A stretch of DNA of 64,000 bases, taken from NCBI RefSeq assembly GCF_900105925.1, contig NZ_LT629791.1, positions 3,631,278 through 3,695,277 of the forward strand, written 5' to 3'. The notes below the pieces were generated by a model. That model searched no databases, had not been told where the DNA came from, and saw only the letters and a list, made by a program, of their open reading frames with translations. Below, one piece after another: positions 1,431 to 35,934 of this stretch. How positions within the stretch are numbered: position 1 is the first letter of the stretch; each line of letters begins with the position of its first letter. This stretch comes from Jiangella alkaliphila. Lineage in GTDB: Bacteria > Actinomycetota > Actinomycetes > Jiangellales > Jiangellaceae. A program made the position numbers and the translations under genes.

Positions 1431-1538
1431 TCGTGACAGCTTTTCCGCGCGTCGTGACATCACAAGTCGACCCCGGATCATCTCGTCAGGCCTGTCATCG
1501 ATTGACAGCCGCCTCCTGAGGCTCTTAACGTCTCGTTA
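1431..1538 (+). promoter_or_regulatory. Promoter/operator region of the ABC importer operon
   Basis: The 270-base gap before the importer genes holds several symmetric sites. TCGTGACA occurs twice, at 1431 and 1452, spaced 21 bases (two helical turns). CTGTCA-TCGAT-TGACAG (1492-1508) is a perfect inverted repeat that contains a consensus -35, TTGACA (1502-1507). After a 17-base spacer comes a weak -10, TTAACG (1525-1530), lying in a second perfect inverted repeat, TAACG-TCT-CGTTA (1526-1538). The layout suggests repressor control of sugar uptake. The regulator is not identifiable from this window. Confidence 0.5.
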
Positions 1539-1658: not shown

Positions 1659-2615
1659 ATGCTGGCCTACGTCTTGCGCCGGTTGCTCGTCGCGGCCCCT
1701 GTGCTGGTCGGGATCCTCCTGATCTCGTTCATCCTGGTTCAGCTGATGCCAGGAGACCCGGTACGGGCGTTGATGAGCCCCGAGGAGATGGCTGCCTCAC
1801 CCGAGTACGTCGCACGCCGCCGTGCGGAGCTGGGGCTGGACGATCCTGTGCTCGTGCAGTTCCTGGCCTGGGTGCGGGAGCTCGCCCAGGGCCACCTCGG
1901 GTACTCGTTCCACGGGCGGGTCCCAGTGGCCGAGCTGATCGGGGAACGGATCGGTCCTACCGTCCTCCTCGCCCTGGTCGCGCTGGCCATCGCGTTGATC
2001 GTCGGGATCTCCATCGGCGTGGTGGCGGCGCTACGGCAGAACTCCTGGTTCGACTACCTCGCATCCATCGGGAGCATGGCCGCGGTCTCCATCCCCGCCT
2101 TCTTCCTCGGCCTGATGGCCATCTACATTTTCTCCATCCAACTCGGGATCCTGCCCACCGGCGGCCTGAGGAGTCTGACGTCCGACGGATCCCTGGGCGA
2201 CAGCATCCGGCACCTGGTGCTGCCCGCGGGTGTGCTGGCGGCCAGCTTGGTGGGTCCGTACGTGCGGTACACCAGGCAGGGCATGCTCGAGGTCCTGCGT
2301 CAGGATTTCATGACCACCGCTCGCGCCAAGGGCGTCCCGCGATTCGGCGTCGTGGTCGGGCATGGACTTCGCAACACGCTGATCCCACTGACGACCGTGA
2401 TTGCCCTGCAGCTCCCTGGGCTGCTCACGGGGGTGCTCATCATCGAGGTCATCTTCTCCTGGCCGGGTCTCGGCCAGCTTGTCTATGACTCCATCATCGG
2501 ACGCGACTATCCGGTCATCATCGCCACGGTGTTTTTCAGTGCCGTTCTCGTCATGGTCGCCAACCTGCTCGCTGACCTGCTCGCCGCCGTCCTCGACCCC
2601 AGGATCCGACTATGA
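1659..2615 (+). CDS. ABC transporter permease, DppB/OppB type
   Basis: Inner-membrane permease of a peptide/nickel/oligosaccharide-type importer, 318 residues. A membrane helix starts almost at the N-terminus (residues 5-30), followed by the periplasmic-side LMPGDPV segment typical of DppB proteins and about five more helices. The conserved cytoplasmic EAA loop is near DFMTTARAKG, and the C-terminus ends ADLLAAVLDPRIRL, as in this family. The ATG at 1659 is preceded by a GGGGAAGGGG ribosome site. It is the first gene of a five-gene operon and overlaps the next gene by four bases. Confidence 0.93.
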   Translation: MLAYVLRRLLVAAPVLVGILLISFILVQLMPGDPVRALMSPEEMAASPEYVARRRAELGLDDPVLVQFLAWVRELAQGHLGYSFHGRVPVAELIGERIGPTVLLALVALAIALIVGISIGVVAALRQNSWFDYLASIGSMAAVSIPAFFLGLMAIYIFSIQLGILPTGGLRSLTSDGSLGDSIRHLVLPAGVLAASLVGPYVRYTRQGMLEVLRQDFMTTARAKGVPRFGVVVGHGLRNTLIPLTTVIALQLPGLLTGVLIIEVIFSWPGLGQLVYDSIIGRDYPVIIATVFFSAVLVMVANLLADLLAAVLDPRIRL

Positions 2616-3583
2616 GCGATGACATTCGTACTCAGGCGGTCCTCAGCGAACCGCCCCCCGAGCCACGACGTGACGTCGGCCGCATGGAGGCAAGGAGGGT
2701 CACCGCTGCCCCGGTCGCCGAGCCCCTTCCAGCGTCCATCCCGCCGATGCGGCTGGCGCTGCGCCGCTTTCGCCGGCACCGGCTGGCGTTCGCCAGTCTG
2801 CTGTTCATCGCAACGCTCGCGTTGCTCGCCGTTCTCGCGCCCCTCATCGCCCCGCACGATCCGAACGCCGTCAGCACGTCGGCGTTCCGGACACCACCGA
2901 GCGGCGATCACTGGCTCGGCACCGACTCCGCCGGGCGTGACGTGTTGTCGCGGCTGCTCTACGGGGCGCGGGTGTCACTCACCGTCGGCATCGCCGCCGC
3001 TCTCTCCGCAACCGCGCTGGGAACCGTGCTGGGGCTGATGGCCGGACTGCTCGGTCGATGGGTGGACGCCACCATCATGCGGCTGGTCGACACCTTCCTG
3101 TCGTTCCCGTCTCTGGTCGTGATCCTCGTGCTGGTGTCGGTCCTCGGACCGAGCGTCGGCACGATCATCGTCGTGATCGCACTGTTCGAATGGCCGGCCC
3201 CCTGCCGGATCGTGCGGCAGATGTCGCTCTCGATCAGGGAGGCGGACTACGTGCTCGCGGCCCGAGCTATCGGAGCGCGCAGAATATCCATCGCCCTACG
3301 TCACATGGTCGCGCCGGTGTTGCCGCCGCTGACCGTGGTGGCCACGCTGCTCAGCGCCGGCGCCATCCTGCTGGAGGCTGCCCTCTCGTTCCTGGGCCTC
3401 GGCGTGGAGCGGCCGCAGGCCACCTGGGGCGGGATGCTGCAGGACGCACAGTCGCTGACCATCGTGCAAGAGGTCCCGTGGATGTGGATTCCCGCCGGAG
3501 CCGCCATCGCCGTCACCGTACTCGCGATCAACTTCATCGGTGACGGACTGCGCGACGCCTTCGATCCGAGGCAGAACCCATGA
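2612..3583 (+). CDS. ABC transporter permease, DppC/OppC type
   Basis: Second permease of the importer, 323 residues. A hydrophilic N-terminal tail of about 50 residues precedes the first helix. Then comes the DHWLGTDSAGRDVLSRLLYGARVS block, which is diagnostic of DppC-type permeases, and five further helices. The EAA-type loop reads DYVLAARAIGARR, and the C-terminus carries GDGLRDAFDPR. The start ATG overlaps the stop of the upstream permease (ATGA at 2612), so the two are translationally coupled. The 50-residue leader is somewhat long for the family, but it is kept because the overlap fixes the start. Confidence 0.93.
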   Translation: MSDDIRTQAVLSEPPPEPRRDVGRMEARRVTAAPVAEPLPASIPPMRLALRRFRRHRLAFASLLFIATLALLAVLAPLIAPHDPNAVSTSAFRTPPSGDHWLGTDSAGRDVLSRLLYGARVSLTVGIAAALSATALGTVLGLMAGLLGRWVDATIMRLVDTFLSFPSLVVILVLVSVLGPSVGTIIVVIALFEWPAPCRIVRQMSLSIREADYVLAARAIGARRISIALRHMVAPVLPPLTVVATLLSAGAILLEAALSFLGLGVERPQATWGGMLQDAQSLTIVQEVPWMWIPAGAAIAVTVLAINFIGDGLRDAFDPRQNP

Positions 3584-4647
3584 CCGAGACAGTCGCATCC
3601 CCCCGCGCGTCCGCGGGCTCGTCCGGCGAGCCGTTGCTGTCCGTCCAGCACCTCTCCACCCGGATCGCGACGCAGACCGGCACGGTGCACGCCGTCAGCG
3701 ACGTCAGCTGGGAGATCCGCGCCGGCGAGATCCTCGGGATCGTCGGTGAATCGGGGTCGGGCAAGAGCGTCAGCGTGAGCTCGCTGATCAAGCTCCATCC
3801 GTCCCCGCCCGTCACGATCTCCGGCGGTCCCGTCATGTTCCAAGGGCAGGACCTGCTGGCCCTCTCCGAGCGGGAGTTGCGCCGCATCCGCGGCCGCGAG
3901 ATCGCCATGATCTTCCAGGACCCCATGACGTCGTTCAACCCGGTAAAGACGATCGGCCGGCAGATTTCCGAGGCCGTCCGGGTCCACGATCGCCGGGTCT
4001 CGCGCCGAGCCGCACGCGATCGCGCCGTCGAACTCCTCACGATGGTCGGTGTCCCGAGTCCCGAGGTGCGGTACAAGCAGTTCCCCCATGAGTACTCGGG
4101 CGGAATGCGGCAGCGGGCGATGATCGCGATGGCGATCGCCAACCAGCCGAAGCTGCTCATCGCCGATGAGCCGACCACGGCGCTGGACGTGACGATCCAG
4201 GCGCAGATTCTCGAGATCCTCAAGGTGGCGCAACGCGAGACCGACGCCTCGATCGTCCTCATCACCCATGATCTGGGCATCGTCGCCGAGCTGGCCGATC
4301 GCGTGCTGGTGATGTATGCCGGCCGCGTCGTGGAGTCGGCGCCGGTGCGCGAGCTCTTCCGCCGTCCCCGGCATCCGTACACCGTCAGTCTGCTGGAGAG
4401 CCTGCCGCGGCTCGACGTCGACGCCGATCGGCTGCTCCCCATCCCCGGGTCGCCGCCCAACCCAGTGCACCTACCGCCGGGCTGTGCCTTCGCTCCGCGC
4501 TGTTACCTGGCGCAGGGGCGCGAGCTCTGCCTCACCTCGCGCCCAGAGCTCCGGGCCGCCGGCACCGGCGGCCAGCTCACCGCCTGTCACTATGCCGCCG
4601 AGATCGACGGGCACGGCATCACTTCGCACGTGGGGGAGGAACGATGA
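3580..4647 (+). CDS. ABC transporter ATP-binding protein, DppD/OppD type
   Basis: Cytoplasmic ATPase powering the importer, 355 residues. Visible motifs are Walker A GESGSGKS (residues 56-63), the Q-loop in IFQDPM, signature YSGGMRQR (about 172-179), Walker B LLIADEP (about 192-198) and the H-loop LITHDLG. The C-terminal oligopeptide-transporter extension contains the cysteine set GCAFAPRC plus two later cysteines, as in DppD proteins where these can bind an iron-sulfur cluster. It overlaps both neighbours by four bases. Confidence 0.94.
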
Positions 4648-5699
4648 CGAGCGCGTCGTCCACGCCCGTGACTGAATCGATCCATCCCAACGACGACCTC
4701 CACCGGCGCCTTTCTCGTGGCGCCCCACTGCTCGAGGTGGAGGACCTCACTGTGCGCTACCCCGTCACGTCGACAGTCCTGCGGCGCACGCTGGGTCACG
4801 TCCATGCCGTCGACGGCGTCGACCTCTCCATCGCGGCGGGCGAGACACTCGGCCTGGTCGGTGAGTCCGGCTGCGGGAAGTCGACGACCGGGCTCGCCGT
4901 CCTCCGGCTGATCGAACCCACGGGCGGGCGGATCCGCTTCCACGGGCACGACCTCAACAGCCTGGGCCCTCGGGCGCTGCGGGAGGTCCGCCGCGAGATG
5001 CAGATCGTCCTCCAAGACCCGTTCGCCTCGTTGGATCCGCGGATGACCGTCCAGGCGATCGTCGCGGAGCCACTCAAGGTGCATCGGGTGTGTCCCAACG
5101 GCGCCGCCCGAGACCGGCGAGTGGCCGAACTGCTCGACTTGGTGGGCCTCGACCCACGGCTCGCCACCCGCTACCCGCACGAGTTCTCCGGCGGGCAGCG
5201 TCAGCGCATCAGCATCGCCCGCGCGCTCGCGCTCGGGCCGCAGCTGCTCGTCCTCGACGAGCCCATCTCCTCGCTCGACGTCTCCATCCAGGCACAGATC
5301 ATCAATCTCCTGCGTGACCTGCAGGAAGAGCTGTCACTCTCTTATCTCTTCATCGCTCACGACCTTTCCGTGATCAAGCACATCTGCGATCGGGTCACCG
5401 TCATGTACTTGGGCCGCATTGTCGAGACCGGCACTCCTTACGAGGTCTATCGCCGGCCCACGCATCCGTACACCCAGGCGTTGCTCTCCGCCGTCCCCGT
5501 CCCCGACCCCGAACTCCGTGGCGAGAGCCAGCGCATCATCCTCCGCGGCGACGTTCCCGATCCACAGAATCCACCGTCCGGGTGCCGGTTCCGCACCCGG
5601 TGCTGGAAGGCGCAGTCCCTGTGCGCTGAGAAGTCACCCGAGCTCATCGACCGCACCGGTCAGGGCCACCTCAGCGCGTGCCACTTTCCATCCCTCTGA
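4644..5699 (+). CDS. ABC transporter ATP-binding protein, DppF/OppF type
   Basis: Second ATPase subunit, 351 residues, pairing with the DppD-like protein. Walker A GESGCGKS is at residues 73-80, the Q-loop is in [13 protein letters not shown] (a hallmark of the F-type subunit), the signature is FSGGQRQR, Walker B is LLVLDEP, and the H-loop is FIAHDLS. A C-terminal [12 protein letters not shown] segment and a cysteine-containing oligopeptide extension follow. The start overlaps the previous gene by four bases. A 25-base gap separates it from the binding protein gene, which is probably still in the same operon. Confidence 0.94.
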
Positions 5700-5724
5700 C
5701 AACGGACCAGGAATGGGATGAATC

Positions 5725-7374
5725 ATGAACCGCTCCACACGTAGGTGGGCCGTGGCGCTGACGGCGCTGGCGATGCTCGCCACAGCATGCACGTCGGGTA
5801 CCGACGACCTCGACAGCGAAGGGCCCGATCCGTCGTCGGCCCGGTCCACGCTCGAGATCGCCGGTGTCGGTGGGCCATCGGACGCCACCAGCCTGGTGCC
5901 GCATCAGGAGGACGGCCTGGGGTCGTTCCTCGAGACCCTGTTCACTCCCTTGTTCCAGATCGACGCCGCGAACGAGACGTACTCGAACCTGCTCGACTCG
6001 TGGACCGTCTCGGACGACGTACAGACGGTGACGCTCAAGTTGAAGGAGGACGCCGTCTGGAGCGACGAGACTCCGGTCACCTCCGCCGACGTGATCATGT
6101 CACTGACGCAGTACCTCGACCCCGCGATCAGCCTCTGGGCCGGCCGTATCGGTGGCATCGTGGGTCAGGCCGCGTACGTCGAGGGCACGGCCGACAGCAT
6201 CACGGGGCTGACCGCGCCCGACGACCGGACGGTGGTGGTGCAGCTCGAGCAACCGGATCTCGCGTGGCTGCCCAACCTGGGATACCTTGCCAAGTTCATG
6301 CCCGTCCTCCCGTCGCACATCCTCGGCGACGTCCCGCATGACCAGTTGCTCGCCCACGAGTACTTCACGACGTATCCGGTGACTAACGGCCCGTACCTGC
6401 TGGACGAGGTCGTTCGTGATCAGTACGTGAAGCTGGTCGCGAACCACAACTGGTCGGCGGGCGAGGCACAGATCGAAGAGATCTTCATCAAGAACGTCGC
6501 CACCGACGTGCTGAGCGCGCAGTTGGAGTCGGGCGAATCGCAGCTGATCACGGCCGTCAGCCCGGAGGAGGCGGACCGAGTCGGGTCGATCGACGGCGTC
6601 GAGGTGCAGAGCGCGACCGGGGCGGCGCCGAACAGCTGGTGGCTGATGAACTACGGCCCGATCAAGGATCCGCGAGTACGGCAGGCCATGGTCTACGCCA
6701 TCGACCGTCAGGGGATCTGCGACCAGGTGCTGCAGGGCCACTGCACGGTCCCCGCGGCGAACAACCGTCAACTGGCTCCAGAGTGGTCTCTCCCCACCGA
6801 CGATGTCATCGAGTACGACTACGACCCGGACCGGGCGCGCGAGCTGCTCGATGAGGCCGGCTGGGATCCTGGCACCGAGCTCACGTTCTTCGCCTTCGAC
6901 GCCGGCGGCATCCCTGACGCCGGCATCGAGATCGCCCAGGCCAACCTGGCCGAGGTCGGCATCAACTGGTCGATCGTCGACAGCGATGTCGCGACGACCT
7001 TCGAAGCCATCGAGACGGGTGGCGGTGCGGAAGTGCAGGGCTTCCCACTCGGCGGGGGCAACTTCGTCACCGATCCGAGTCAAGTCGCGGTTTACGCGGA
7101 TTGCGATGCGTTCTTCCCGAACGGTTCCAACCTCATTCACTACTGCGACCCGGCACTGGACGAGTTGTGGGACACCGGTCGTCGTGAGCCCGATCAGGCT
7201 CGGCGAGCGGAGATCTACCACGACGCCTTCAGGATCTTGAACGAGAACCCGATGGAGATCATCTTCTACGTCCAGGACCAGATCGTGGCCCACGACGCAC
7301 GGCTGCAAGGCGTACAGGCGCATCCGTCGGGCGACATCTATTGGAACGTCGCCGAATGGACCTGGGAGGAATGA
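5725..7374 (+). CDS. Extracellular solute-binding lipoprotein, family 5
   Basis: Captures substrate outside the cell for the adjacent importer; 549 residues. The N-terminus has positive charge, a hydrophobic stretch and a lipobox ending in ATAC with Cys22, so the mature protein should be lipid-anchored. The middle carries the SBP_bac_5 pattern (DSWTVSDD, VKLTLK-like, DGxPVTSADV as TPVTSADV) and later RVRQAMVYAIDR. Family 5 proteins mainly bind peptides but also oligosaccharides and nickel complexes. The flanking rhamnosidase and oxidoreductase genes favour a sugar or glycoside ligand, which is an inference. Its last codons overlap the next gene start. Confidence 0.92.
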   Translation: MNRSTRRWAVALTALAMLATACTSGTDDLDSEGPDPSSARSTLEIAGVGGPSDATSLVPHQEDGLGSFLETLFTPLFQIDAANETYSNLLDSWTVSDDVQTVTLKLKEDAVWSDETPVTSADVIMSLTQYLDPAISLWAGRIGGIVGQAAYVEGTADSITGLTAPDDRTVVVQLEQPDLAWLPNLGYLAKFMPVLPSHILGDVPHDQLLAHEYFTTYPVTNGPYLLDEVVRDQYVKLVANHNWSAGEAQIEEIFIKNVATDVLSAQLESGESQLITAVSPEEADRVGSIDGVEVQSATGAAPNSWWLMNYGPIKDPRVRQAMVYAIDRQGICDQVLQGHCTVPAANNRQLAPEWSLPTDDVIEYDYDPDRARELLDEAGWDPGTELTFFAFDAGGIPDAGIEIAQANLAEVGINWSIVDSDVATTFEAIETGGGAEVQGFPLGGGNFVTDPSQVAVYADCDAFFPNGSNLIHYCDPALDELWDTGRREPDQARRAEIYHDAFRILNENPMEIIFYVQDQIVAHDARLQGVQAHPSGDIYWNVAEWTWEE

Positions 7375-10330: not shown

Positions 10331-11599
10331 TCAGGTCGTCGCGGCGGCGAGGACGATCTCGGCCGCGGCTCGCACGCCGTCTTCGGCCCGCACCACGGGG
10401 GCGAGCTCACGGGCGCGGGCGGCGATGGCGGGGTCGCTCACCGCCTGCGTGATCGCCTGCGCCAGCGGCTTCGGGGCCAGGCGGTGCTGCGGGATGGGCG
10501 CGACCGCCACACCGGCCGCATGCGCGCGCCGGGCGAAGAACCGGTGGTCGGGAAGGTACGGGCAGCCCACTTGGGGCCGGCCCGACATGAGGGCGAGGCC
10601 GAAGGTTCCGATCCCGCAGTGATGGACGATGGCCGCCATTCGCGGGAACAAGCTCTCCAGGGGGGCCTCCCGGAGGAAGAGGATGTCGTCGGCGTTCTCG
10701 TCCGGTTCGATTCCGCCCCACCCCGCGACGACGACCGCCCGGACGCCGGCTCGCCGGACCGCCTCCGTGACGATCCGCCCGGTCCGCCGAGGATCGCCTC
10801 CGACGCTGCTTCCGAACCCGATGTAGACCGGAGGTTCGCCGCGGGCCAGGAAGTCCTCCACCTCCTCCGGAAGTGGAGCCGGATCGGCCGGCAGATCGAA
10901 CCAGAATCCCGTGGTGTGCACCCAGTCGGGATAGTCCAGCCGCGACGGGAGGATGTGCCGGCTGAACGGGTGGATGACCGTGGCGGGTGTGCCGTCCGGC
11001 GTACGCAACACGTCGTGGTGCTTGCGCCGGGGCGGCAACCCGAGCGTGTGCGATCGCCAGGCGTCCATGTCGCCCTGATAGGAACGACGACGAACCTCGA
11101 ACGCCCGATACGAGAGGCGATTCAGACTCGGAGGTAGCTGGAACGGCAGAGCCGGATAGGTGAAGGATCTCGTCGGGATCCAGGTCGGATGGGGACAGAC
11201 CGGGACCGCGGGTATGCCCAGCCGTTCGGCGATCTCATGCGCCGGGTAGAACGCGTGGTGAACGATGACGTCGGCTCCCTCGCGTCCTGCGTCGGCCATG
11301 TCGTCGTAGATCTCGTGCATCGCGCGCTGGACATGTGGCCTGTTGCGCCACTGGAGCCCCCTGTACCGCAGGTTCCGGACACCTGTCGCGCCGGCCTCGC
11401 GAAGCCTCGGATCGAGCGTCAGTTGCGTGGTGCGGTCGGCGAACGAGATCACCCGGGGGCGCGCGGGGAGCGTCAACGAGGCGAGTGCCATCGGGGCGCC
11501 TAGCAGCACCTCGTGGCCGGATTCGTCCAAGGTCCGGGCCAGGGCCGCGAAGGGTTCGACGTCACCGCGCGTCCCATACGTCAGTACCAGGATCTTCAT
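10331..11599 (-). CDS. GT1-type glycosyltransferase (UGT/YjiC-like)
   Basis: Transfers a sugar from a nucleotide donor to a small molecule or lipid acceptor; 422 residues. The start chosen gives MKILVLTYGTRGDVEPFAALA, the conserved N-terminus of sterol/macrolide-type GT1 enzymes; the frame is open further upstream but without similarity. The C-terminal donor domain contains PPVYIGFGSSVGGDP, then a variant of the usual HHGGAGT motif, VHHCGIGTFGLAL, then SGRPQVGCPYLPDHRFFA. The unusual Cys and Ile in place of Gly-Gly and Ala may alter donor binding. It is paralogous to the genes at 20953 and 30810. Confidence 0.9.
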   Translation of the reverse strand: MKILVLTYGTRGDVEPFAALARTLDESGHEVLLGAPMALASLTLPARPRVISFADRTTQLTLDPRLREAGATGVRNLRYRGLQWRNRPHVQRAMHEIYDDMADAGREGADVIVHHAFYPAHEIAERLGIPAVPVCPHPTWIPTRSFTYPALPFQLPPSLNRLSYRAFEVRRRSYQGDMDAWRSHTLGLPPRRKHHDVLRTPDGTPATVIHPFSRHILPSRLDYPDWVHTTGFWFDLPADPAPLPEEVEDFLARGEPPVYIGFGSSVGGDPRRTGRIVTEAVRRAGVRAVVVAGWGGIEPDENADDILFLREAPLESLFPRMAAIVHHCGIGTFGLALMSGRPQVGCPYLPDHRFFARRAHAAGVAVAPIPQHRLAPKPLAQAITQAVSDPAIAARARELAPVVRAEDGVRAAAEIVLAAATT

Positions 11600-20952: not shown

Positions 20953-22239
20953 TCAGTGGGTGCGCGCGCCGTCAGCGACGAGCGTCTCGAGGAGTTCGGC
21001 CGCGGTGGCGGCCCCGTTCTCGGCGCGGATCAGCGCGCCGAGCTCCTGCGCCCGGACGGTCAGCGCCGGGTCGTCGACCGCCCGTTCGATGGCGGCGGCC
21101 AGCTTCTCGGCGGTCAGAGTGGACTGCGGCAACGGCGCGGTCGCGACGCCGGCGGCGTGCATCCGGGCGGCGTTGAACGGCTGCTCGTACATGAACGGGC
21201 AGATCACCTGTGGCCGGCCGGCCGCGAGCGCGGCACTGAGGGTGCCGGCGCCACCGTGGTGGACGACCGCTGCCACCTGCGGGAACAGCCAGTCGAACGG
21301 GGTCTCCTCCGCGACGAACACGTTGCCGCCGGAGAGCGGCTCGGCGGAGATCCCCCCGGATCCGGTGACCACCACGGCGCGCATGCCGGCGAGGCGCACG
21401 GCCTCGGCCACGACGTGACCGGCGTGGACGGGGTCGGTGCCGGCGACGCTGCCGAACCCCAGGTAGACGGGCGGTTCGCCGGCGCGGAGGAACCGGTCCA
21501 GCGAGGCGGGCGGCGTCCACTGCGGGGGCGCCGGCAGGAACCAGAATCCGGTGGTGTGCACCCAGCTCGGATAGTCCGTCCGTTCGGGCAGGAGATGACG
21601 GCTGAAGGCGTGCAGCACCGTTGTGGCGGCGCCGTCCGGGCGCCGCAGCATGTTCCGGCTGCCTCGGCGTCGCGGCAGGTCCAGGACGTCGCGCCGCCAC
21701 CGCGACGTGTTGCCCAGCTGTCCATGGACCCAGAGCCTGCTGGTCAGGTACGAGGCCCGGTTGAGCGGACGCGGCAGGCGCAGCGGGATCAGCGGGTTCG
21801 CGAAGGCGCTCGTCGGGACCCAGCCGGGCTGGAGACAGGCGAGGGCCGCGGGTACGCCCAGGCGTTCGGCGATCTCGTGTCCCGGCAGGTTGGGCAGGTG
21901 CACCACCAGGTCGGCGCCCTCGTCGCCGATCGCGGCCATGTCGTCCAGCACCCGGGCCATCATCGGCTGGTAGCGGCGGAAGAGCGCGGCGGCGAGCCGT
22001 TTGCCACGCAGACCGCGGAAGTTGGTCTCGTATCCCGCGCGCACGACGGGGTCGTTGGACAACGTGTCGTATCGGTCGAAGAGCGGGGCGAAGCGGATCC
22101 CGTAGGGCTCGGCGAGGTGTGCCAGGGGAGCGTTCGTCGCGAGGACGGCTTCATGTCCCGCGTGGGTGAGCGCACGTGCGAGCGCCGCGAAGGGCTGCAC
22201 GTCACCCCGAGTCCCGTGCGAGAACAGCAGCACCTTCAT
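20953..22239 (-). CDS. GT1-type glycosyltransferase (UGT/YjiC-like)
   Basis: Nucleotide-sugar glycosyltransferase of 428 residues, paralogous to the gene at 10331. The start was placed at MKVLLFSHGTRGDVQPFAALARAL, the family N-terminus. It has the canonical donor motif VVHHGGAGTLSAALAAGRPQVICPFMYEQPFNA and the PPVYLGFGSVAGTDP segment. An acceptor-domain loop, GLRGKRLAAALFRRYQPMM, is highly basic. Acceptor unknown. It is divergent from the BldD-like gene across 151 bases, a candidate shared control region. Confidence 0.92.
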   Translation of the reverse strand: MKVLLFSHGTRGDVQPFAALARALTHAGHEAVLATNAPLAHLAEPYGIRFAPLFDRYDTLSNDPVVRAGYETNFRGLRGKRLAAALFRRYQPMMARVLDDMAAIGDEGADLVVHLPNLPGHEIAERLGVPAALACLQPGWVPTSAFANPLIPLRLPRPLNRASYLTSRLWVHGQLGNTSRWRRDVLDLPRRRGSRNMLRRPDGAATTVLHAFSRHLLPERTDYPSWVHTTGFWFLPAPPQWTPPASLDRFLRAGEPPVYLGFGSVAGTDPVHAGHVVAEAVRLAGMRAVVVTGSGGISAEPLSGGNVFVAEETPFDWLFPQVAAVVHHGGAGTLSAALAAGRPQVICPFMYEQPFNAARMHAAGVATAPLPQSTLTAEKLAAAIERAVDDPALTVRAQELGALIRAENGAATAAELLETLVADGARTH

Positions 22240-22390
22240 GCTCGTCCCTTCCGTGCGCTCCCATCGGCAGCCAGCGTCGCGAGCCGGAGCGCCGTCGTGG
22301 AAGGGGCCGGTGTCCGCCGCTCGACATGCGGCCGCGGCCGGACCGGGTGACAATCGCGCCAGGGGAACCACGAGAACGGGAGCTCGGTGC

Positions 22391-22882
22391 ATGAGTGATG
22401 ACCAGGCCAACTCCGATGCGACGTTCAGCAAACGGATCGGTGCGCGGCTGCGAGCGCTGCGCGAACGGCGCCGATTGACGTTGCAGGAGGTGGAGCGGCG
22501 TACCGGTGGCTCGATCCGCTACACGGTTCTCGGCTCGTACGAACGGGGCGAGCGCACGCCGGGCATCCGCCGCATCCTCGAACTGGCCGAGCTCTACGAG
22601 GAGCCGATCGAGGAGTTGCTGAGAGGCCTGCACGGGCAGCCTCGGCAGCGCACTCTCGACACCGGCAGGGCGGTGTTGCACCTGGAGCGGTTGCGGTCCG
22701 CGCCGCGCGAGGCCGAGGCCCTGACTCGCTTCGTGGACGGCTTGCAGCGCATCCGCGGCGACTACGGCACCGTCATCCTCACCATCAGGTCGGCCGACAT
22801 CGTGACGATGTCCGCCGTCTACGGCACCGATCCCCAGGATCTCCGGCAGCGCATCGTCGACTGGGGTGTCCTCGAGCCGTAG
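22391..22882 (+). CDS. BldD-like transcriptional regulator with cyclic-di-GMP motif
   Basis: 163 residues in the BldD layout: XRE helix-turn-helix (residues 15-77, with VLGSYERGERTP matching the BldD recognition region) followed by the BldD C-terminal domain (about 95-163). That domain contains RGD (122-124) and RSAD (133-136) separated by eight residues, the RxD-x8-RxxD signature through which Streptomyces BldD binds a cyclic-di-GMP tetramer. It ends DWGVLEP; BldD continues a little further. The ATG at 22391 is adopted although the ribosome site is weak. It is likely a paralogue rather than the housekeeping BldD, given the accessory context. Confidence 0.87.
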   Translation: MSDDQANSDATFSKRIGARLRALRERRRLTLQEVERRTGGSIRYTVLGSYERGERTPGIRRILELAELYEEPIEELLRGLHGQPRQRTLDTGRAVLHLERLRSAPREAEALTRFVDGLQRIRGDYGTVILTIRSADIVTMSAVYGTDPQDLRQRIVDWGVLEP

Positions 22883-22942
22883 CCGGGCTGGGCTGAAGAC
22901 GCCACCTTCCGGCACTGCCGGGCTGGAGCACACTGTGGGGGC

Positions 22943-24109
22943 GTGCTGCGGCGGATCTGCGTGTTCACCGGCTCCCGGGCCGACTACGGGCCGCTGCTGC
23001 CGGTCATCGCGGCGTTGCGCGACGAGCCCACCGTCGACCTGCGGCTGCTGGCCACCGGGGGGCATCTGGTCCCAGGACAGGGCATGACCGTCGGCCAGAT
23101 CGAGGCGGACGGGTTCGAGGTGGCCGAGCGGGTCGACATGGTGCTCGCACGGGACACCCCGTCGACGGCGGCGAAGTCGCTGGCGCTCGGCGTGATCGGT
23201 TACGCCGACGCGCTGGACCGGCTGGACCCGGACCTGCTGGTGCTGCTGGGGGACCGGTACGAGGCCCTGGCCGCCGCGATGGTGGCGCACCTTCGCCTCC
23301 TGCCGATAGCGCACATCAGCGGGGGAGAGCTGTCCTACGGCTCCACCGACGACTCGACGCGGCACGCGATCACGAAGCTCGCGCACCTGCACTTCACCGC
23401 GAACGAGGAGTTCCGGGCCCGGGTGATCCAGCTCGGGGAGGCGCCCAGCAGGGTGTTCGTCACCGGGGTGCCGAGCCTGGACACCATCCGGACGGCGCCC
23501 CTGCTGGATCGTGCCGAGTTGTCCCGGCGGATCGGCCTGCCGCTGCGGGACCCCGTGCTGGCGGTGACCTATCATCCGGCGACGGCGGACGTCGCGGGCA
23601 GCCGTGACGGCGTCGCCGGCCTGGTCGCCGCCCTCGAGGCGCTGCCGGACGCCACCGTCGTCATCACCGGGACCAACGTCGACCCGGGCGGCGCTGAGGT
23701 GTTCGCCCCGATCCGCGAGTTCGCCGGCCGTCAGGCCGTCCGCGCCGCCATGGCGGCCTCGCTCGGCCAGCACGCCTACCTGAGCCTGGTCCGGCAGGCC
23801 GCGGTCGTGGTCGGGAACTCCAGCAGCGGGCTGATCGAGGCGCCGGCGCTGCACACCCCGACGGTGAACATCGGCACGCGCCAGGACGGCCGGCCGCGTG
23901 CGGCGTCGGTCATCGACTCTGGAGAGACCGCCGACGACATCATCCGCGCGATTCGCCGGGCGCTGACGCCCGAGCACCAGCGGCTGGCCAGGACCGCCCG
24001 GTCCCCGTTCGGCGACGGCCGGGCGGCGGGACGGATCGTCGACGTGCTGCGCTCGATCGACCTCGACGGGCTGACGACGAAGCGGTTCGCCGACCTGCCC
24101 GTGCGCTGA
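22943..24109 (+). CDS. Hydrolysing UDP-N-acetylglucosamine 2-epimerase (NeuC/LegG type)
   Basis: Converts a UDP-N-acetyl sugar to the free 2-epimer (ManNAc or its 4-amino derivative) for nonulosonic acid synthesis. 388 residues from GTG 22943. Family blocks are CVFTGSRADYGPLLPV, LLGDRYEALAAA, HISGGELSYGSTDDSTRHAITKLAHLHF, and GNSSSGLIEAPALHTPTVNIGTRQDGR near the C-terminus. The strong HISGGE and GNSSSG motifs favour the hydrolysing NeuC/LegG class over WecB. Partner enzymes LegB and LegC occur 9 kb away at 32716. A NeuB/LegI synthase and a CMP-transferase were not found in the window. Confidence 0.88.
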   Translation: MLRRICVFTGSRADYGPLLPVIAALRDEPTVDLRLLATGGHLVPGQGMTVGQIEADGFEVAERVDMVLARDTPSTAAKSLALGVIGYADALDRLDPDLLVLLGDRYEALAAAMVAHLRLLPIAHISGGELSYGSTDDSTRHAITKLAHLHFTANEEFRARVIQLGEAPSRVFVTGVPSLDTIRTAPLLDRAELSRRIGLPLRDPVLAVTYHPATADVAGSRDGVAGLVAALEALPDATVVITGTNVDPGGAEVFAPIREFAGRQAVRAAMAASLGQHAYLSLVRQAAVVVGNSSSGLIEAPALHTPTVNIGTRQDGRPRAASVIDSGETADDIIRAIRRALTPEHQRLARTARSPFGDGRAAGRIVDVLRSIDLDGLTTKRFADLPVR

Positions 24110-24119
24110 CGCCGCCGGC

Positions 24120-24746
24120 TCAGCCCGGCGGCACCCGCTCGCGCAGGCGGCGCGCGGGGACCCCGCCGTAGACGCCGTAGGGCTCGGTGTCGCGGGTCAG
24201 CACCGCACCGGCGCCGACTATGCAGCCGCGCGCGACCGCCGTTCTCGGCGTGACGGTGGCGTTGGCGCCGATCCACACGTCGTCGGCGAGCGTGATGGGG
24301 CCGCCGTCCTGCGGCGCGAGGGCCATCGGCTCGGGATGCCGGCGCGGATCGTGCTGCACGGTGGACAGGACGACGTGCGCGGCGATGTTGCAGTACGCGC
24401 CGATCGTCAGGCCGTGCTTTCCGTAGAGGGCGCAGCCGGCGGCGAAGTGGGTGCGCCGGCCGATCCTGATGCGGCCCTGGGCGTCCCCGGTCGAGATGTA
24501 GGTCGATGGGAAGAACTCCACGCCCTCCTCGACCCCGACCTCGCCGGCGCCCTGGACGAAGCACCAGGGATGGAAGGTCACGTTCGCGCCGACCGTCATG
24601 CGCACGTCGCCCTGGCAGTGGAAGCCTCGGCCGATCCGGACGTTGTCGCCCACCCGCAGCAGCTCGGGACGCTCGATCCGCACGTCGTCGTCGATGACGA
24701 CGCCGTCGCCGCAGTGCGCCAGTCTGGCGCGGAGATCTTCGGACAT
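24120..24746 (-). CDS. Left-handed beta-helix acyltransferase (hexapeptide repeat)
   Basis: 208-residue O- or N-acyltransferase with hexapeptide repeats. Short repeat units such as VRIERP, VRIGRG, VRMTVG, VTFHPW and IRIGRR run through the middle, and the C-terminal coil has DDVWIGANATVTPRTAVARGCIVGAGAVL, as in CysE/WbbJ-type enzymes. The start at 24746 (MSEDLRARL) was chosen because upstream codons overlap the trehalase remnant and show no similarity. It is convergent with the NeuC-like gene, 10 bases apart. Possible role: acylation of a surface sugar. Confidence 0.85.
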   Translation of the reverse strand: MSEDLRARLAHCGDGVVIDDDVRIERPELLRVGDNVRIGRGFHCQGDVRMTVGANVTFHPWCFVQGAGEVGVEEGVEFFPSTYISTGDAQGRIRIGRRTHFAAGCALYGKHGLTIGAYCNIAAHVVLSTVQHDPRRHPEPMALAPQDGGPITLADDVWIGANATVTPRTAVARGCIVGAGAVLTRDTEPYGVYGGVPARRLRERVPPG

Positions 24747-24807: not shown

Positions 24808-25190
24808 AGGGACGAAGTACTCGGTGAGGACCTGCGTAGGAGCGTACTCAACATGCTGGCGGCCATCAGGGATGACAGGCATGGTGATCATTACGGCACC
24901 GAGCAGTTGCCATGGATGCATCCGGCCGGCTGGGCGCCGGAGCAGCCCATCGTGGCTCAAGGGCTGCGCGACTACGGCTACGACGAGCACACCAAGCGCA
25001 TCGGCCGGAACTTCCTGAGGCTGGCGATCGGCGAGTGCCGACGCACGGGCCGGCTGCCGGAGACGTACAACGAGGTCGACGGCGGGATGGAACTGCCGAA
25101 CGCCCGGTACGGGAACGCGACGATGCACGGCTGGACCGCGGCCGCCGCGGTCGTGGTGGGGCGCGCCGTCATCGGCCGGACGGCTGACCC
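24808..25190 (+). pseudogene. 5'-truncated remnant of a trehalase-like glycosidase
   Basis: About 128 codons in one frame match the last third of the trehalase-like protein at 19428. MHPAGWAPEQPIVAQGL corresponds to MYPAGWAPEHLIAAEGL, ETYNEVDGGMELPNARYGN to EKYNVVDGTLVLPNSRCGN, and MHGWTAAAAVVVGRAV to LRGWTATAVVLLGRYV. No start codon with a ribosome site, and the N-terminal two thirds are absent. The reading frame runs on antisense into the neighbouring luciferase-like gene. It is a relic of a second glycosidase copy on the opposite strand. Confidence 0.8.
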
Positions 25191-27021: not shown

Positions 27022-28008
27022 GCGGCCTCGTCCAGCCGGACCAGGCGGTGCTAGCGCGCCGATCGGCCGATCGGCCGATCGCCTCGTGGAGCCGCATGGT
27101 GTCGTAGGCACTGGCGATCGCCGACTCCGGCTCGCCGCCCCTCCCGGACGGCGTCGACGAACTCGAGCAGCTCCCCGCGGTAGCCGCGCTCGGCGTTGCC
27201 GTCGACGATGGCGAACGGTACCAGTCGGCCACCTGCTGGTACCGGATCATCTTGCCGGCGTGCGGGACGACCACGTAGTGGCCCGGCCCGCCGGTGAGCT
27301 CGGTCCGCTCGGTGACCGAGTAGGCGTGGTTCCCCGACATCCCGAGGACCCCGATCGCGCCGCTCTGGAACTGCAGGCTGACGGCGTACGCGATGTCGTC
27401 GAGCTGGTTGGCGAAGACCTCGGCGACCTCGCCGAACATGTACCGGGCCAGGTCCAGCATGTGGACGCAGATGTCGAGCAGCAACCGGGGCTTCGGGTCG
27501 TCCGGGAGGTTTCCTTCGGTGAACGGGCCGGAGGACCAGTTGATGGTGAGCAGCGTCGGCGCGCCGAAGTCGGGGGAGTGCACCGCCTCGTGCGCCTTCC
27601 GGTAGGCCGGTGCGAACCGCTTGACGACGTCATGCACGGCTGCCCGGTCCGCCGGATCGTCTCGAGAACGGCCAGGGCGTCCGCGGCGCTGAGCGCGGGC
27701 GGCTTCTCCGTATCGACGGGCAGGCCGGCCTCCATGACCTCGATGGCCAGCCGCGAATGCTCCTGTGGCCCGACGCAGACGACGACCGCGTCGAGGCCGG
27801 CCCGCTCGATCATCCTGAGGTGATCGGTGAAGACCTCCTCGGCGCAGAAGACCCGAGCGTTGTGCTCCGCTTTCGACCGGTCCAGGTTGAAGACGGCTGC
27901 GAGCCGGACCGGGAGATCGCGCAGGGCGGAGCAGATCATCTTGGAGGAGTTGACCCCCGGCCCGATGATGCCGAGCCGTAGCTCACGGCCCGGACTCGCG
28001 GTCGTCAC
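27018..28008 (-). pseudogene. Gfo/Idh/MocA oxidoreductase with at least four frameshifts
   Basis: Paralogue of the intact gene at 28521, which makes each lesion easy to place. From GTG 28008 the protein reads LGIIGPGVNSSKMIC and VVVCVGPQEHSRLAIEVMEAGLPV correctly to GQPCMT. One base is then missing near 27640 before KRFAPAYRKAH. Two compensating shifts bracket 27140-27230, where the family sequence GYRGELLEFVDAV lies in another frame. A fourth is needed near 27050 to reach the likely ending VRLDEAA and stop TGA 27018. It is headed by a 45-base gap from the VOC gene. Confidence 0.87.
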
Positions 28009-30809: not shown

Positions 30810-31760
30810 ATGAAGGTGCTGATGCTCACGTACGGGAGCCCTGGCGACGTCGAGCCGTTCGTCGCGCTGACGGAGGCGCTCGACGAGGCCGGTCACGAGG
30901 CGGTGCTGGGCGCGCCGTTCGACCTGGCCTCGATGGACCCGCCCGCGGGTCTGCGTGTCGTGCGGTCTCGGACCGGACGACGCGCTCGGCGACGACCCCC
31001 GGGTGCGTGAGGCGGTCGGGACCGGGCTCTGGCGGCTGCGTCACAAGCGCCGGGAGTGGCGGGCGATGCGCGGGCTGCGGCGCGTCACGACCGGAATCTA
31101 CGACGACATGGTCGCGGAGAGCCGTGACGGTGCTGACGTCGTCGTCCATCACGCGCTGTTCCCCGGCCAGCAGATCGCGGGAGAAGCTGGGGGTGCCAGC
31201 CGACGCGTCTGCCCGCACCCCGTGTGGGTGCCGTCCGGCTCCTTAACCTATCTGGCGCTGCCGCTCGCGCTACCGCGGCAGCCGAACCGGGGCTCGTGCC
31301 GGGTGATGGACGCCCGCAGCGGGCCTACCAGGGCGACCTCACGAGCTGGCGGCAGCGGTCGCTGGGCCCGCTGGCCATTATGACGTGCTCCGGCCGCAGG
31401 ACAGCGACCCTGTGACCGTCCTGCATCCCTTCAGCCGGCCCAAACTGCCGCCGGAACTGGACTGCCCGGGCTGGGTGCACAACCACCAGATACTGGTTCA
31501 CGCGGATCGATCCTCCCTGGACGCCGCCGACGGCGCTGGCAGAGTTCCTGGACGGTGGCGACCCGCCCGTATACATCGGCTTCGGCAGTCTGGTCGGCGC
31601 CGATCCCGGCCGAGCGCTAAGAAAGGCGGAGCGGGTGGCTCCGATTGCGCTCGTGCGTCCCTCTTCCGCGTCGGTGCATGCCTCGCTGGTGACGAACAGG
31701 ACGTGGGTCTTCGCCCCGGGCGGGCGCTGGGCAGAGCAATTCCGTCGATGACTGTCCTGG
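30810..31760 (+). pseudogene. Collapsed GT1-type glycosyltransferase
   Basis: Third paralogue of the genes at 10331 and 20953. It starts well with MKVLMLTYGSPGDVEPFVALTEALDEAG at 30810, then changes frame near 30970 (DDALGDDPRVREAVGTG), again near 31190 before LGVPA, and again several times after 31290. Recognisable later pieces are YQGDLTSWRQRSLGP, DPVTVLHPFSRPKLPPELDCPGWVH, and PPVYIGFGSLVGADP. The donor-binding HHGGAGT region appears lost. At least four indels plus deletion of the 3' part make this clearly non-functional. Confidence 0.87.
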
Positions 31761-32715: not shown

Positions 32716-33711
32716 ATGGATGCACTGACGCGCATGCGGGTTCTGGTCACGGGTGCGGACGGATTCATCGGGAGTCATCTGGTCGAGCGGTTGCTCGACG
32801 AGGCCGCGGCGGTCAAGGCGTTCTGCATCTACAACAGCAACGGCTCCTACGGCTGGCTGGACGAGCTGGCGCCGGGCCGCCGGGCGGGGATCGACCTGCA
32901 ACTCGGCGACATCCGCGACCCGCGGTCCGTGCGGGACGCCGTGCGCGACGTCGACGTCGTCTTCCACCTTGCGGCGCTGGTGGCGATCCCGTACAGCTAC
33001 CAGGCGCCCGAGTCGTTCGTCGACACGAACGTCAAGGGGACGTTGAACGTGCTGGAGGCCGTGCGCGACGCGGGCGGCGTCCGCATGGTGCACACCTCCA
33101 CGAGCGAGGTGTACGGGACGCCCGAGACGGTGCCGATCACCGAGGACCACCCGCTGCGCGCCCAGTCGCCCTACGCCGCGTCGAAGATCGCCGCGGACCA
33201 GCTGTGCCAGTCGTACGCCAGGTCGTTCGACGTGGACGCCGTCACCCTGCGGCCGTTCAACACGTTCGGCCCGCGGCAGTCCGCTCGCGCCGTCATCCCC
33301 ACCATCCTCGGGCAGCTGCTCGCGGGCGCCACCACCGTGCGGCTGGGCAACCTGTCGCCCCGGCGTGACCTGACCTTCGTCGCCGACACGGTGGACGGGT
33401 TCGTCCGGATGGCCGCTGCCGGCCTTCCCGCGGGGTCGGTGGTCCAGCTCGGCACCGGCAACGCGGTGTCCATCGAGGAGCTGTTCGCGCTGTCCTGCGA
33501 GGTGACCGGGGTCGAGGCGACGGTCGTCACCGATCGGCAGCGGATCCGGCCCGAGTCCAGCGAGGTCCAGGTGCTGCTCTCGGAACCGAGCAGGGCGAAG
33601 GCGGCGCTGGGCTGGCAGGCCGGGTGTACCCTGCCGGACGGGCTGCGCGAGACCGCTCGATGGCTCGAATCCCGGGTCGTCGCCGACCAGGTGACGAGGT
33701 ACCACCGGTGA
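32716..33711 (+). CDS. legB: NAD-dependent 4,6-dehydratase, LegB-like
   Basis: Extended SDR of 331 residues resembling LegB, which makes a UDP-4-keto-6-deoxy-N-acetylhexosamine in legionaminic acid synthesis. Motifs: VTGADGFIGSHLVERL (residues 11-26), FHLAALVAIPYSYQAP, HTSTSEVYGT, SPYAASKIAADQL (YxxxK) and RPFNTFGPRQSARAVIPTI, a stretch very close to LegB proteins, then LGNLSPRRDLTFV. ATG 32716 is preferred; ATG 32734 (MRVLVTG) is an alternative. The stop overlaps the start of the aminotransferase gene, so the two enzymes are coupled. Confidence 0.85.
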   Translation: MDALTRMRVLVTGADGFIGSHLVERLLDEAAAVKAFCIYNSNGSYGWLDELAPGRRAGIDLQLGDIRDPRSVRDAVRDVDVVFHLAALVAIPYSYQAPESFVDTNVKGTLNVLEAVRDAGGVRMVHTSTSEVYGTPETVPITEDHPLRAQSPYAASKIAADQLCQSYARSFDVDAVTLRPFNTFGPRQSARAVIPTILGQLLAGATTVRLGNLSPRRDLTFVADTVDGFVRMAAAGLPAGSVVQLGTGNAVSIEELFALSCEVTGVEATVVTDRQRIRPESSEVQVLLSEPSRAKAALGWQAGCTLPDGLRETARWLESRVVADQVTRYHR

Positions 33712-34844
33712 TTCCGCTGGCCGAACCCGTCCTCGGCGGCAACGAGGCGCGCTACCTGGCCGAGTGCATCGAGACAGGATTCGTGTCGTCGGTCGGGCCG
33801 TTCGTCGAGCGGTTCGAGCAGCGCTTCGCCGAGGCCGTCCGCGCCGGCCACGCCGTGGCGTGTGCCAGCGGCACGGCGGCGCTTCATGTCGCCTTGAGGC
33901 TGGCCGGCGCGGGACCCGGCCGGTTGGTGGCGGTGTCGGACTTCACCTTCATCGCGTCGGCCAACGCGGCGGCGTACACCGGCGCGGACGTCCTGCTCGT
34001 CGACAGCGAACCCGACACCTGGAACATGGACACGGAGCTGCTGTACGACGAGGTGACGCGCCGAGCCCGCCTCGGGGAGCCGATCCCGGACGTCGTCGAG
34101 GTGGTGCACGTGCTCGGGCATCCGGCGGCCATGGAGCCGTTGCTGGAGTTGCGGTCGCGATTCGGTGTGCGGATCGTCGAGGACGCGGCCGAGGCGCTGG
34201 GCGCCTCGTGGACCAGCGGCCCCCTGGCGGGACGTCAGGTGGGCACAGTGAGCGACCTCGGCTGCTACTCCTTCAACGGCAACAAGATCATCACCACCGG
34301 CGGTGGCGGGATGATCGTGACGGCTGACGCCGAGTACGCGGACGCGGCGAGGCACCTGGCGAACCAGGCGAAGGTGGCCGGCGGCCACTACGAGCACGAC
34401 ACCGTCGGCTACAACTATCGGCTGACCAACCTCGCCGCGGCGGTCGGCGTCGCGCAGCTGGAGCGCCTGCCCGAGCTGCTGGCGGCCAAGCGGTCGATCG
34501 CCTCGCGGTACGACGCGTGGCTGTCGACGTCGCCGTTCACGCCGGCACCGAGAGCGGCGTGGGCGGACCCGTCCTACTGGCTCTACTCGGTCCTGGCGGG
34601 GGCCGGCGACTCCAGTCCGGACGACGTGGTCGCCCGTCTGGCCGCGGCGGGCGCTCAGGCGCGGCGGCTGTGGCCGCCTCTGCATCGGCAGCGGCCGTAC
34701 GCGTCCGCCCGCGTTCTCGGCGGAGCGGTCGCGGATGACCTGCACCGCCGGGGGATCTCCCTTCCGAGCACGGCCACGCTGTCCGCCGAGGACCAGGAGG
34801 CGGTGGTGGCGACGGCGCTGACCGCTGTCGGTGTGGGTGCGTGA
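33708..34844 (+). CDS. legC: DegT/DnrJ/EryC1 aminotransferase, LegC-like
   Basis: PLP-dependent sugar aminotransferase of 378 residues that would aminate the 4-keto sugar from the LegB-like enzyme. IPLAEPVLGGNEARYLAECIETGFVSSVG opens the protein. SGTAALHVAL binds PLP, and GCYSFNGNKIITTGGGGM contains Lys193, the expected Schiff-base lysine. GYNYRLTNLAAAVGVAQLERL is the conserved downstream block. The GTG start overlaps the upstream TGA (GTGA). Sequence around SSVG and SFNGNKIITTGGGGM strongly resembles LegC proteins. Confidence 0.86.
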   Translation: MIPLAEPVLGGNEARYLAECIETGFVSSVGPFVERFEQRFAEAVRAGHAVACASGTAALHVALRLAGAGPGRLVAVSDFTFIASANAAAYTGADVLLVDSEPDTWNMDTELLYDEVTRRARLGEPIPDVVEVVHVLGHPAAMEPLLELRSRFGVRIVEDAAEALGASWTSGPLAGRQVGTVSDLGCYSFNGNKIITTGGGGMIVTADAEYADAARHLANQAKVAGGHYEHDTVGYNYRLTNLAAAVGVAQLERLPELLAAKRSIASRYDAWLSTSPFTPAPRAAWADPSYWLYSVLAGAGDSSPDDVVARLAAAGAQARRLWPPLHRQRPYASARVLGGAVADDLHRRGISLPSTATLSAEDQEAVVATALTAVGVGA

Positions 34845-34893
34845 CGGGGGTTTCGGCGGTTCCAGCGAGGTACCGCAGTGAGGAGGACGGCGA

Positions 34894-35934
34894 GTGAGGG
34901 TGCTCGTGACAGGGGCGGCCGGCCGGGTCGGGTCGACGCTCGCGCAGCAGCTGGTGCAGTCGGGCCACGACGTGCGCGGAACGGTTCAGCCGGACGGGCG
35001 GCAGCCGCATCCGGCGCTGGCGGCGCGGATCGAGGTCGTCGAAGCCGCGATGACCGATGCCCGCGCACTGCGCCGGGCCGTCGCCGACACGGAGGTCGTC
35101 GTCCATCTGGCCGCGCGGATCGTCGTCGGCGGGCGGCCGGCGGATGAGCTGCTCGACGTCAACGTCGGGGGGACGCTGCGGCTCTTGGAGGCGTCGGTGG
35201 CCGGCGGGAGCCGGGTCCGGCGCTTCGTCTTCGCCAGCACCGACAACGTCTACGGGCCGGCGACGCCGGCGTCGGGGCCGTACACGGAGGAGAGTCCGCA
35301 GCGACCCGGCGACTACTACGGCACCTCCAAGGTGCTCGCCGAGCAGCTCGTCCGGAACCACCGTGAGCTGCACGGCCTCGAGTACACGATCATGCGCCTG
35401 GGCTCGGTCATCGCGCCCAACGAGGCGCTACCGCTGTTCCGGCTCGCGTGGACGCGGGCGTTCCTGGCCGGACAGGTCGAGGCCGGGAAGCGCGGCAGCC
35501 TCTGGCAGTTGTTCGCCGGCCGCGACGACGTCCTCGCCGGCTTCGACACGGCGGTGAGCGGTCATACCGACAACCCGGCGGTCGCGCTGCTCGGGCCCGG
35601 CGGCGCGCCCTGGTCCATTCACTTCACCGACGTGCGCGACTCGGTGGCCGGGTTGATGCTCGGCATCGAGCGCCCGCAGGCGGCCGACGAGGTGTTCAAC
35701 GTGGTCGGGCCGCGGACCACCACGTTCGCGGCGGGTGCCGGCGTGGTGGCCGCGGCCTTCGGCATCGGCTCGGTCGACGTGACGCTGCCGGTACGGCTTG
35801 CTTTCGAGGTCTCCACCGTCAAGGCGCGCAGCCTGCTGGGATACGCGCCCCAGTGGGATTTCGCCGCGACGCTGGAGAGCGCCTTGCGGACGCCGCACGT
35901 CGACCCGAGCTATCTCCCGGTGTCGCCGGCCTAG
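34894..35934 (+). CDS. NAD-dependent epimerase/dehydratase family protein
   Basis: Extended SDR, 346 residues. Start GTG 34894 follows a GAGGAGG ribosome site. VTGAAGRVGSTLAQQLV is the NAD motif, HLAARIVVGG follows, and FASTDNVYGPATPASG and DYYGTSKVLAEQLV give the catalytic Ser and YxxxK. It ends with SLLGYAPQWDF, as in UDP-glucose epimerase relatives. A long middle insertion (about 170-215, including a tract rich in aromatic and charged residues) is shared with the divergent protein at 35966, so the pair are diverged paralogues. Substrate unknown. Confidence 0.87.
   Translation: MRVLVTGAAGRVGSTLAQQLVQSGHDVRGTVQPDGRQPHPALAARIEVVEAAMTDARALRRAVADTEVVVHLAARIVVGGRPADELLDVNVGGTLRLLEASVAGGSRVRRFVFASTDNVYGPATPASGPYTEESPQRPGDYYGTSKVLAEQLVRNHRELHGLEYTIMRLGSVIAPNEALPLFRLAWTRAFLAGQVEAGKRGSLWQLFAGRDDVLAGFDTAVSGHTDNPAVALLGPGGAPWSIHFTDVRDSVAGLMLGIERPQAADEVFNVVGPRTTTFAAGAGVVAAAFGIGSVDVTLPVRLAFEVSTVKARSLLGYAPQWDFAATLESALRTPHVDPSYLPVSPA

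Follow-up and report, generated by a model that had tools for sequence, protein, structure and literature searches.

A second, probably c-di-GMP-responsive BldD-family protein in an amino-sugar and importer neighborhood of Jiangella alkaliphila

In passages of PMC4255298 and PMC4151990, BldD is described as a master switch of development in actinomycetes, highly conserved and syntenic. A BldD-like gene lies among sugar genes in the 64-kb stretch of the Jiangella alkaliphila genome analyzed here (the window). The gene, called bldD2 below, starts with ATG and encodes a protein of 163 amino acids. A sequence-only reading of the window had proposed that this protein is a BldD paralog that responds to c-di-GMP and links surface glycosylation to that signal. 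A search of a literature library found no report linking BldD or c-di-GMP with Jiangella, nor one linking "BldD-like" with c-di-GMP.

The C-terminal part of BldD2 matched the whole of the BldD-like_C domain with 62.3 bits (cut-off 27; E 3.9e-17), and the XRE helix-turn-helix (HTH) that precedes it scored 37.7 bits with HTH_3 (cut-off 23). BldD2 therefore has the domain layout of BldD-like proteins, a BldD_C domain above the Pfam cut-off and a preceding XRE HTH. The best matches among solved structures were 2ewt for the HTH (E 1.4e-13) and 4oaz for the C-domain (E 1.7e-10), which we take to be domains of BldD itself, the depositors having named them just "DNA-binding protein"; the letters of both matches agreed with the Streptomyces-type BldD reference. 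The frame is open, with a GC3 of 0.88. An AlphaFold model built from a two-row alignment had a mean pLDDT of 52.4 and was too poor for use. The domain match is strong, and it bears out the predicted membership of BldD2 in the BldD family.

Table 1. Positions of bldD2, its parts and neighbors in the window, and of related regions elsewhere in the window genome (C1, contig positions)
Feature	Position	Strand	Evidence or remark
Opp/Dpp-type ABC importer	1659..7374	+	OppD 3580-4647, OppF 4644-5699
Palindrome TAACGTCTCGTTA, fitting TNAC-N5-GTNA	1526..1538		upstream of importer operon
Divergent glycosyltransferase	20953..22239	-	EryCIII-like C / GT28
bldD2/glycosyltransferase divergent intergenic region	22240..22390		151 bp, candidate control region
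bldD2, XRE-HTH + BldD_C	22391..22882	+	ORF, Pfam, solved-structure matches
HTH region, residues 29-62	22475..22576	+	has diverged from BldD; R37L relative to P. endophytica copy
BldD-like C-terminal domain, residues 93-161	22667..22873	+	Pfam PF21179
Motif 1, RGD, residues 122-124	22754..22762	+	equivalents of R114 and D116
Motif 2, RSAD, residues 133-136	22787..22798	+	equivalents of R125 and D128
UDP-GlcNAc 2-epimerase, NeuC-like	22943..24109	+	60 bp 3' of bldD2, same strand
Hexapeptide-repeat transferase	24120..24746	-	start uncertain
NDP-sugar dehydratase and DegT aminotransferase	32734..34844	+
NAD-dependent epimerase	34894..35934	+	in the dehydratase/DegT cluster
Core run and counterparts	L062:669-7347, C1 about 1530668-1537346		GAF-GGDEF-EAL and bldD-type genes
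nusB surroundings	C1:5083000-5099000		L074, counterparts L075-L078; without bldD

The pattern RGD-x8-RSAD, which had been read as the c-di-GMP signature of BldD, does fit RxD-x8-RxxD and occurs once in the protein (residues 122-136, nucleotides 22754-22798). The motif string was rejected as sole evidence, since an unrelated glycosyltransferase in the window (10331-11599) carries it too (2 of the 61 predicted window genes have it), and the bare motif arises in 1.4% of shuffles of BldD2. Because the string is this unspecific, the case rests on domain homology. In the residue alignment, RGD-x8-RSAD fell on R114, D116, R125, and D128 of BldD. The contacts of BldD with c-di-GMP given in passages of PMC4151990 are K84, I110, R114, D116, N118, S123, R125, D128, and R130, and the residues of BldD2 at these nine positions are, in the same order, R, L, R, D, G, T, R, D, and V. 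BldD2 keeps the whole R/D/R/D tetrad, with a conservative replacement of K84 by another basic residue and threonine in place of S123, while N118 and R130, the latter a phosphate contact, are lost. The loss is not peculiar to BldD2, as both were missing in all 14 Jiangellaceae rows other than that of the basal MAG G004. The tetrad was kept in 34 of the 35 aligned rows, the exception being the closest full-length relative of BldD2, from Phytoactinopolyspora endophytica, in which D116 is replaced by E and motif 1 reads RDE instead of RGD. With this change in the sole full-length close relative, ligand binding is not certainly conserved. As judged from its sequence, BldD2 is probably c-di-GMP-responsive.

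One other BldD_C protein above the cut-off was found in the window genome (C1:1536870-1537328), and it was 49% identical to BldD2. This second BldD-type protein was present in all 12 genomes of the genus, with exactly one copy in each of the 11 others, and a bldD2-type extra copy was found in 1 of the 12. The claim that BldD2 is a paralog was thus upheld by a second BldD_C protein in the genome, BldD2 being the accessory one in the genus, and the possibility that bldD2 is the only bldD in the genome was ruled out by the genus-wide copy. The accompanying expectation of a separate housekeeping bldD stood in part: a second, genus-wide copy exists, but it scores below the equivalog cut-off and lies away from the nusB site, which ruled out an ordinary housekeeping BldD. 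Canonical BldD was defined by the NCBIfam equivalog NF050110, for which the cut-off is 250 bits. The core Jiangella copy scored 172.2 bits, BldD2 124.3, and the P. endophytica copy 104.8, all under the cut-off; the basal MAG G004 has a copy that, at 288.4 bits, was over it.

The synteny of canonical BldD with nusB and pyrR-pyrB is described in passages of PMC4255298. In G004, bldD was found between nusB, with two small genes intervening, and a phosphoribosyltransferase/carbamoyltransferase pair fitting pyrR-pyrB. No bldD was found around nusB in the five Jiangellaceae genomes read there (G000, which is the window genome, G010, G017, G001, and G021, with G020 left out of the count), and the BldD_C copies of these five sit elsewhere. 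BldD2 is likewise not in the canonical neighborhood. G003, which is 75% complete, had no BldD_C match.

BldD2 shares with Streptomyces BldD the XRE-HTH and BldD_C layout, the basic nature of residue 84, and the RxD-x8-RxxD tetrad, but it differs in its sub-equivalog score, its genomic place, and the substitutions R130V and N118G. The DNA-binding domain of BldD2 is only 30/68 identical to that of Streptomyces-type BldD and does not share the near-invariance given in passages of PMC4151990, where the DNA-binding domains of BldD homologs from sporulating actinomycetes are 95-100% identical. The genus-wide Jiangellaceae copy falls in a common clade with BldD2 and also has the R/D/R/D tetrad, in the form RND-x8-RAED. 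It differs from BldD2 in having a BldD-like recognition helix, AVVVGSYERGD, and in being encoded in a run with a GAF-GGDEF-EAL gene.

In the window genome, this core bldD-type gene lies downstream of the GAF-GGDEF-EAL gene in an operon-like run, which opens with a gene that matched no Pfam family, followed by a ThiF-like gene, the GAF-GGDEF-EAL gene, and the bldD-type gene. The placing of a ThiF-like gene beside the GAF-GGDEF-EAL gene presumably resembles a mycobacterial arrangement. A GGDEF-EAL neighbor was found on the upstream side in 20 of 20 core loci; the canonical locus of G004, the 21st tested, was without one. The GGDEF and EAL protein of the window genome bears AGDEF and EALVRW signatures. 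No RNA families were found at the gathering threshold at the core operon (L062, L063) or in the locus of the P. endophytica copy (L060). The BldD box is given in passages of PMC4151990 as TNAC(N)5GTNA, and all 14 upstream regions read had at least one perfect box at a distance of about 485-645 bp from the first core gene, where simulations gave an expectation of 0.4-1.0 boxes per whole core upstream region (about 7 kb). All nine regions from the genus of the window had at least three boxes there, two of them spaced 21 bp apart. The 14 regions came from 14 Jiangellaceae genomes including G000 and G010, nine of them from the genus, with the genus genomes G006, G013, and G015 left out. The boxes suggest that the sensor may feed back on the operon that encodes it.

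Where BldD2 came from was addressed with a tree of 35 rows, hand-chosen from 78 extracted proteins that included duplicates of one locus. BldD2 and the P. endophytica copy, whose row was long, formed a sister pair (100/100) inside a Jiangellaceae clade (97/100), and the pair grouped with the core copies of Phytoactinopolyspora and g6 (95/93). This places the origin of BldD2 within the Jiangellaceae. The P. endophytica paralog (L060:10900-11412) is 54-55% identical to BldD2, with HTH residues 29-62 the same at all but one position, and has Opp genes alongside that are relatives of the window importer; it differs in its motif 1 and in its neighbors, which include a KAS III gene and a GH20-like gene. 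Between the two proteins the HTH domains are identical at 49/68 positions and the C-domains at 33/70, so that the part for DNA recognition has been conserved better. A further relative in P. halotolerans (L061:6493-6834) has a BldD2-type HTH followed by a short tail with CPYC and no BldD C-domain. These two Phytoactinopolyspora proteins were the sole named relatives in a two-peptide-pattern scan, a type of scan that may miss more distant or differently worded ones. Among 393 genomes drawn from the class, matches at E 1e-43 came from the window genome and P. endophytica (G017) only, in a search with a strict threshold that scored at most nine candidates per genome. A phage or plasmid origin of bldD2 was considered and set aside: phage records gave no match at E 1e-10, and the one match from a plasmid collection, to an 11.85-Mb Nonomuraea record, was weak (32.8% identity over 75% of the query). 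bldD2 may be mobile all the same.

The recognition region reads IRYTVLGSYERGERTPG in BldD2, as against WKAVVVGSYERGDRAVT in BldD and LRAVVVGSYERGDRVAS in the core copy, and this altered helix suggests targets other than those of BldD. No perfect BldD box (TNAC-N5-GTNA) was found in either stretch flanking bldD2 (22240-22390 and 22883-22942). The palindrome in the importer upstream stretch, TAACGTCTCGTTA, had a P of 0.0225. In P. endophytica, the bldD2-oppD intergenic region has two perfect boxes spaced by 20 bp, with a P of 0.012 in Markov-1 simulations; both values are uncorrected. Across the window there were 5 TNAC-N5-GTNA sites, where mononucleotide shuffles gave 3.6 on average, which makes the lone importer site weak by itself. 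The boxes at the importer and in P. endophytica could serve the core protein instead.

The description of the surroundings as a sugar region was confirmed, as a glycosyltransferase adjoins bldD2 and amino-sugar genes lie around it. The further claim of nonulosonate genes did not hold up: the NeuC-like 2-epimerase, the dehydratase, and DegT are present, but NeuB synthase (PF03102), the mark of a nonulosonate cluster, had no match in the window. Genome-wide there was one partial match, 254 kb downstream of the window, which scored 22.7 bits against a cut-off of 22.1 and covered positions 61-147 of 241. With no NeuB in the window and just this partial, threshold-level match elsewhere, the nonulosonate label is unsupported. 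Of the 11 other genus genomes, the six with the epimerase among the matches listed were read for the cluster. In these six, a counterpart of the 2-epimerase (67-71% identical) was grouped in a single run with those of the dehydratase, DegT, and the NAD-dependent epimerase. All six hold the sugar cluster without bldD2, and their BldD_C copies sit elsewhere. In the window, the 2-epimerase and the dehydratase cluster (32734-35934) are about 8.6 kb apart, and broken genes lie in the interval. At 24895-25137 there is the tail of a glycosidase, at 27056-27993 a Gfo/Idh-type copy that occupies two frames, and at 30810-31655 a copy of a glycosyltransferase that is divided among frames. The proposed link of BldD2 to surface glycosylation is a positional one, drawn from the place of its gene. 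Further along the window, two similar genes about 3 kb apart (46010-46660 and 49355-49999) are 46% identical over 211 residues, a possible duplication.

The importer lies about 15 kb from bldD2 in the window, and in P. endophytica OppD and OppF are encoded beside bldD2 itself. The P. endophytica OppD had 38 matches in the window genome, of which the window OppD was the best at 73%, the next being 60%; in a pairwise comparison, its OppF was 72% identical to the window OppF. An OppD at least 70% identical to that of the window was found in only 4 of 22 genomes (G000, G016, G017, and G020), and two of these, G016 and G020, lack a second BldD_C gene. The counterparts of the sugar genes in G016 adjoin a GH20-like gene and OppD and OppF genes whose products are 73% and 77% identical to those of the window. 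This shared linkage of Opp and sugar genes indicates that BldD2 belongs to a patchy importer/amino-sugar neighborhood common to the window genome and Phytoactinopolyspora.

The reading that we favor, with about as much doubt as confidence, is that BldD2 is a lineage-specific second BldD-family factor and a probable c-di-GMP-assisted local regulator. c-di-GMP would bridge two BldD2 C-domains through RGD-x8-RSAD, which would raise the effective concentration of the HTH dimer, and the dimer would then bind a palindromic operator and repress (or modulate) nearby genes. The likeliest targets would be the divergent glycosyltransferase and the downstream 2-epimerase, and possibly the importer operon. 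The c-di-GMP signal may be common to BldD2 and the genus-wide BldD-type protein encoded beside the GAF-GGDEF-EAL enzyme. Several findings speak against this reading: D116E in the P. endophytica copy, the lost R130 and N118, flanks of bldD2 free of perfect boxes, the weak importer site and its distance of some 15 kb, the OppD orthologs of G016 and G020 that go with a single BldD_C gene, and the six genus genomes in which the sugar cluster occurs and bldD2 does not. The main rival, which we consider possible but doubtful, is that BldD2 kept the BldD fold and no longer needs or binds c-di-GMP, acting as a constitutive local XRE repressor with a drifting C-domain. The D116E change in the only full-length close relative fits such a loss, as do the missing R130 and N118 contacts, the lower conservation of the C-domain than of the HTH domain within the pair, and the HTH-only relative with a different tail in P. 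halotolerans. However, the tetrad of BldD2 itself is intact, and the genus-wide copies are also without R130 and N118, yet the tetrad is kept in every one of their rows used.

It is less likely, and in our view improbable, that BldD2 acts on the core BldD circuit, tuning development either through competition for boxes or through c-di-GMP pairing with the genus-wide protein. The two proteins have the same kind of C-domain interface, BldD-type boxes lie near the P. endophytica copy, and boxes were present in 14 of 14 core-operon upstream regions read; the difference in recognition helix (IRYTVLGSYERGERTPG versus LRAVVVGSYERGDRVAS) speaks against it, however, and the importer linkage suggests local action. 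Least likely of all, and very improbable, is that bldD2 is a mere passenger, without any regulatory function today, on an island that is decaying. The broken genes at about 24.9-31.7 kb and the presence of bldD2 in 1 of 12 genus genomes are what would be expected of a passenger, but its open frame with a GC3 of 0.88 and its intact HTH and motifs are not.

Local regulation by BldD2 can be placed in a wider scheme, put forward tentatively, in which the Jiangellaceae lost the canonical-site BldD and rebuilt the switch as a self-contained sensor and GAF-GGDEF-EAL circuit behind a box array, and in which an offshoot of this sensor, BldD2, rare, transferable, and with a new helix, runs the amino-sugar/importer island. 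The core BldD circuit, apparently rebuilt in this family, is a more interesting result than BldD2 itself. If the scheme is true, control by c-di-GMP would have been made portable through gene transfer. A family in which the canonical site is empty, a BldD-type protein is paired with an enzyme, and one strain has a diverged extra copy would be a natural test of the duplication, re-targeting, and spread of a second-messenger-driven transcription factor.

BldD duplication as such is not new, since the extra BldD_C proteins of genome family f18 formed a clade of their own (95/96), a duplication apart from that of BldD2. Among the f18 genomes listed with a match, 28 of 29 had 2-5 BldD_C proteins (for example G058, G283, and G346); seven f18 BldD_C loci (L137-L142 and L147, of 29 matches) were left out of the tree and the residue counts. 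Like BldD2, the extra f18 proteins are paralogs, with the tetrad kept in the nine aligned rows, but they differ in that their helices are mostly WKTAAVGSYERGD and R130 is kept in 8 of the 9 rows. The BldD_C proteins of f18 had more than one kind of recognition helix.
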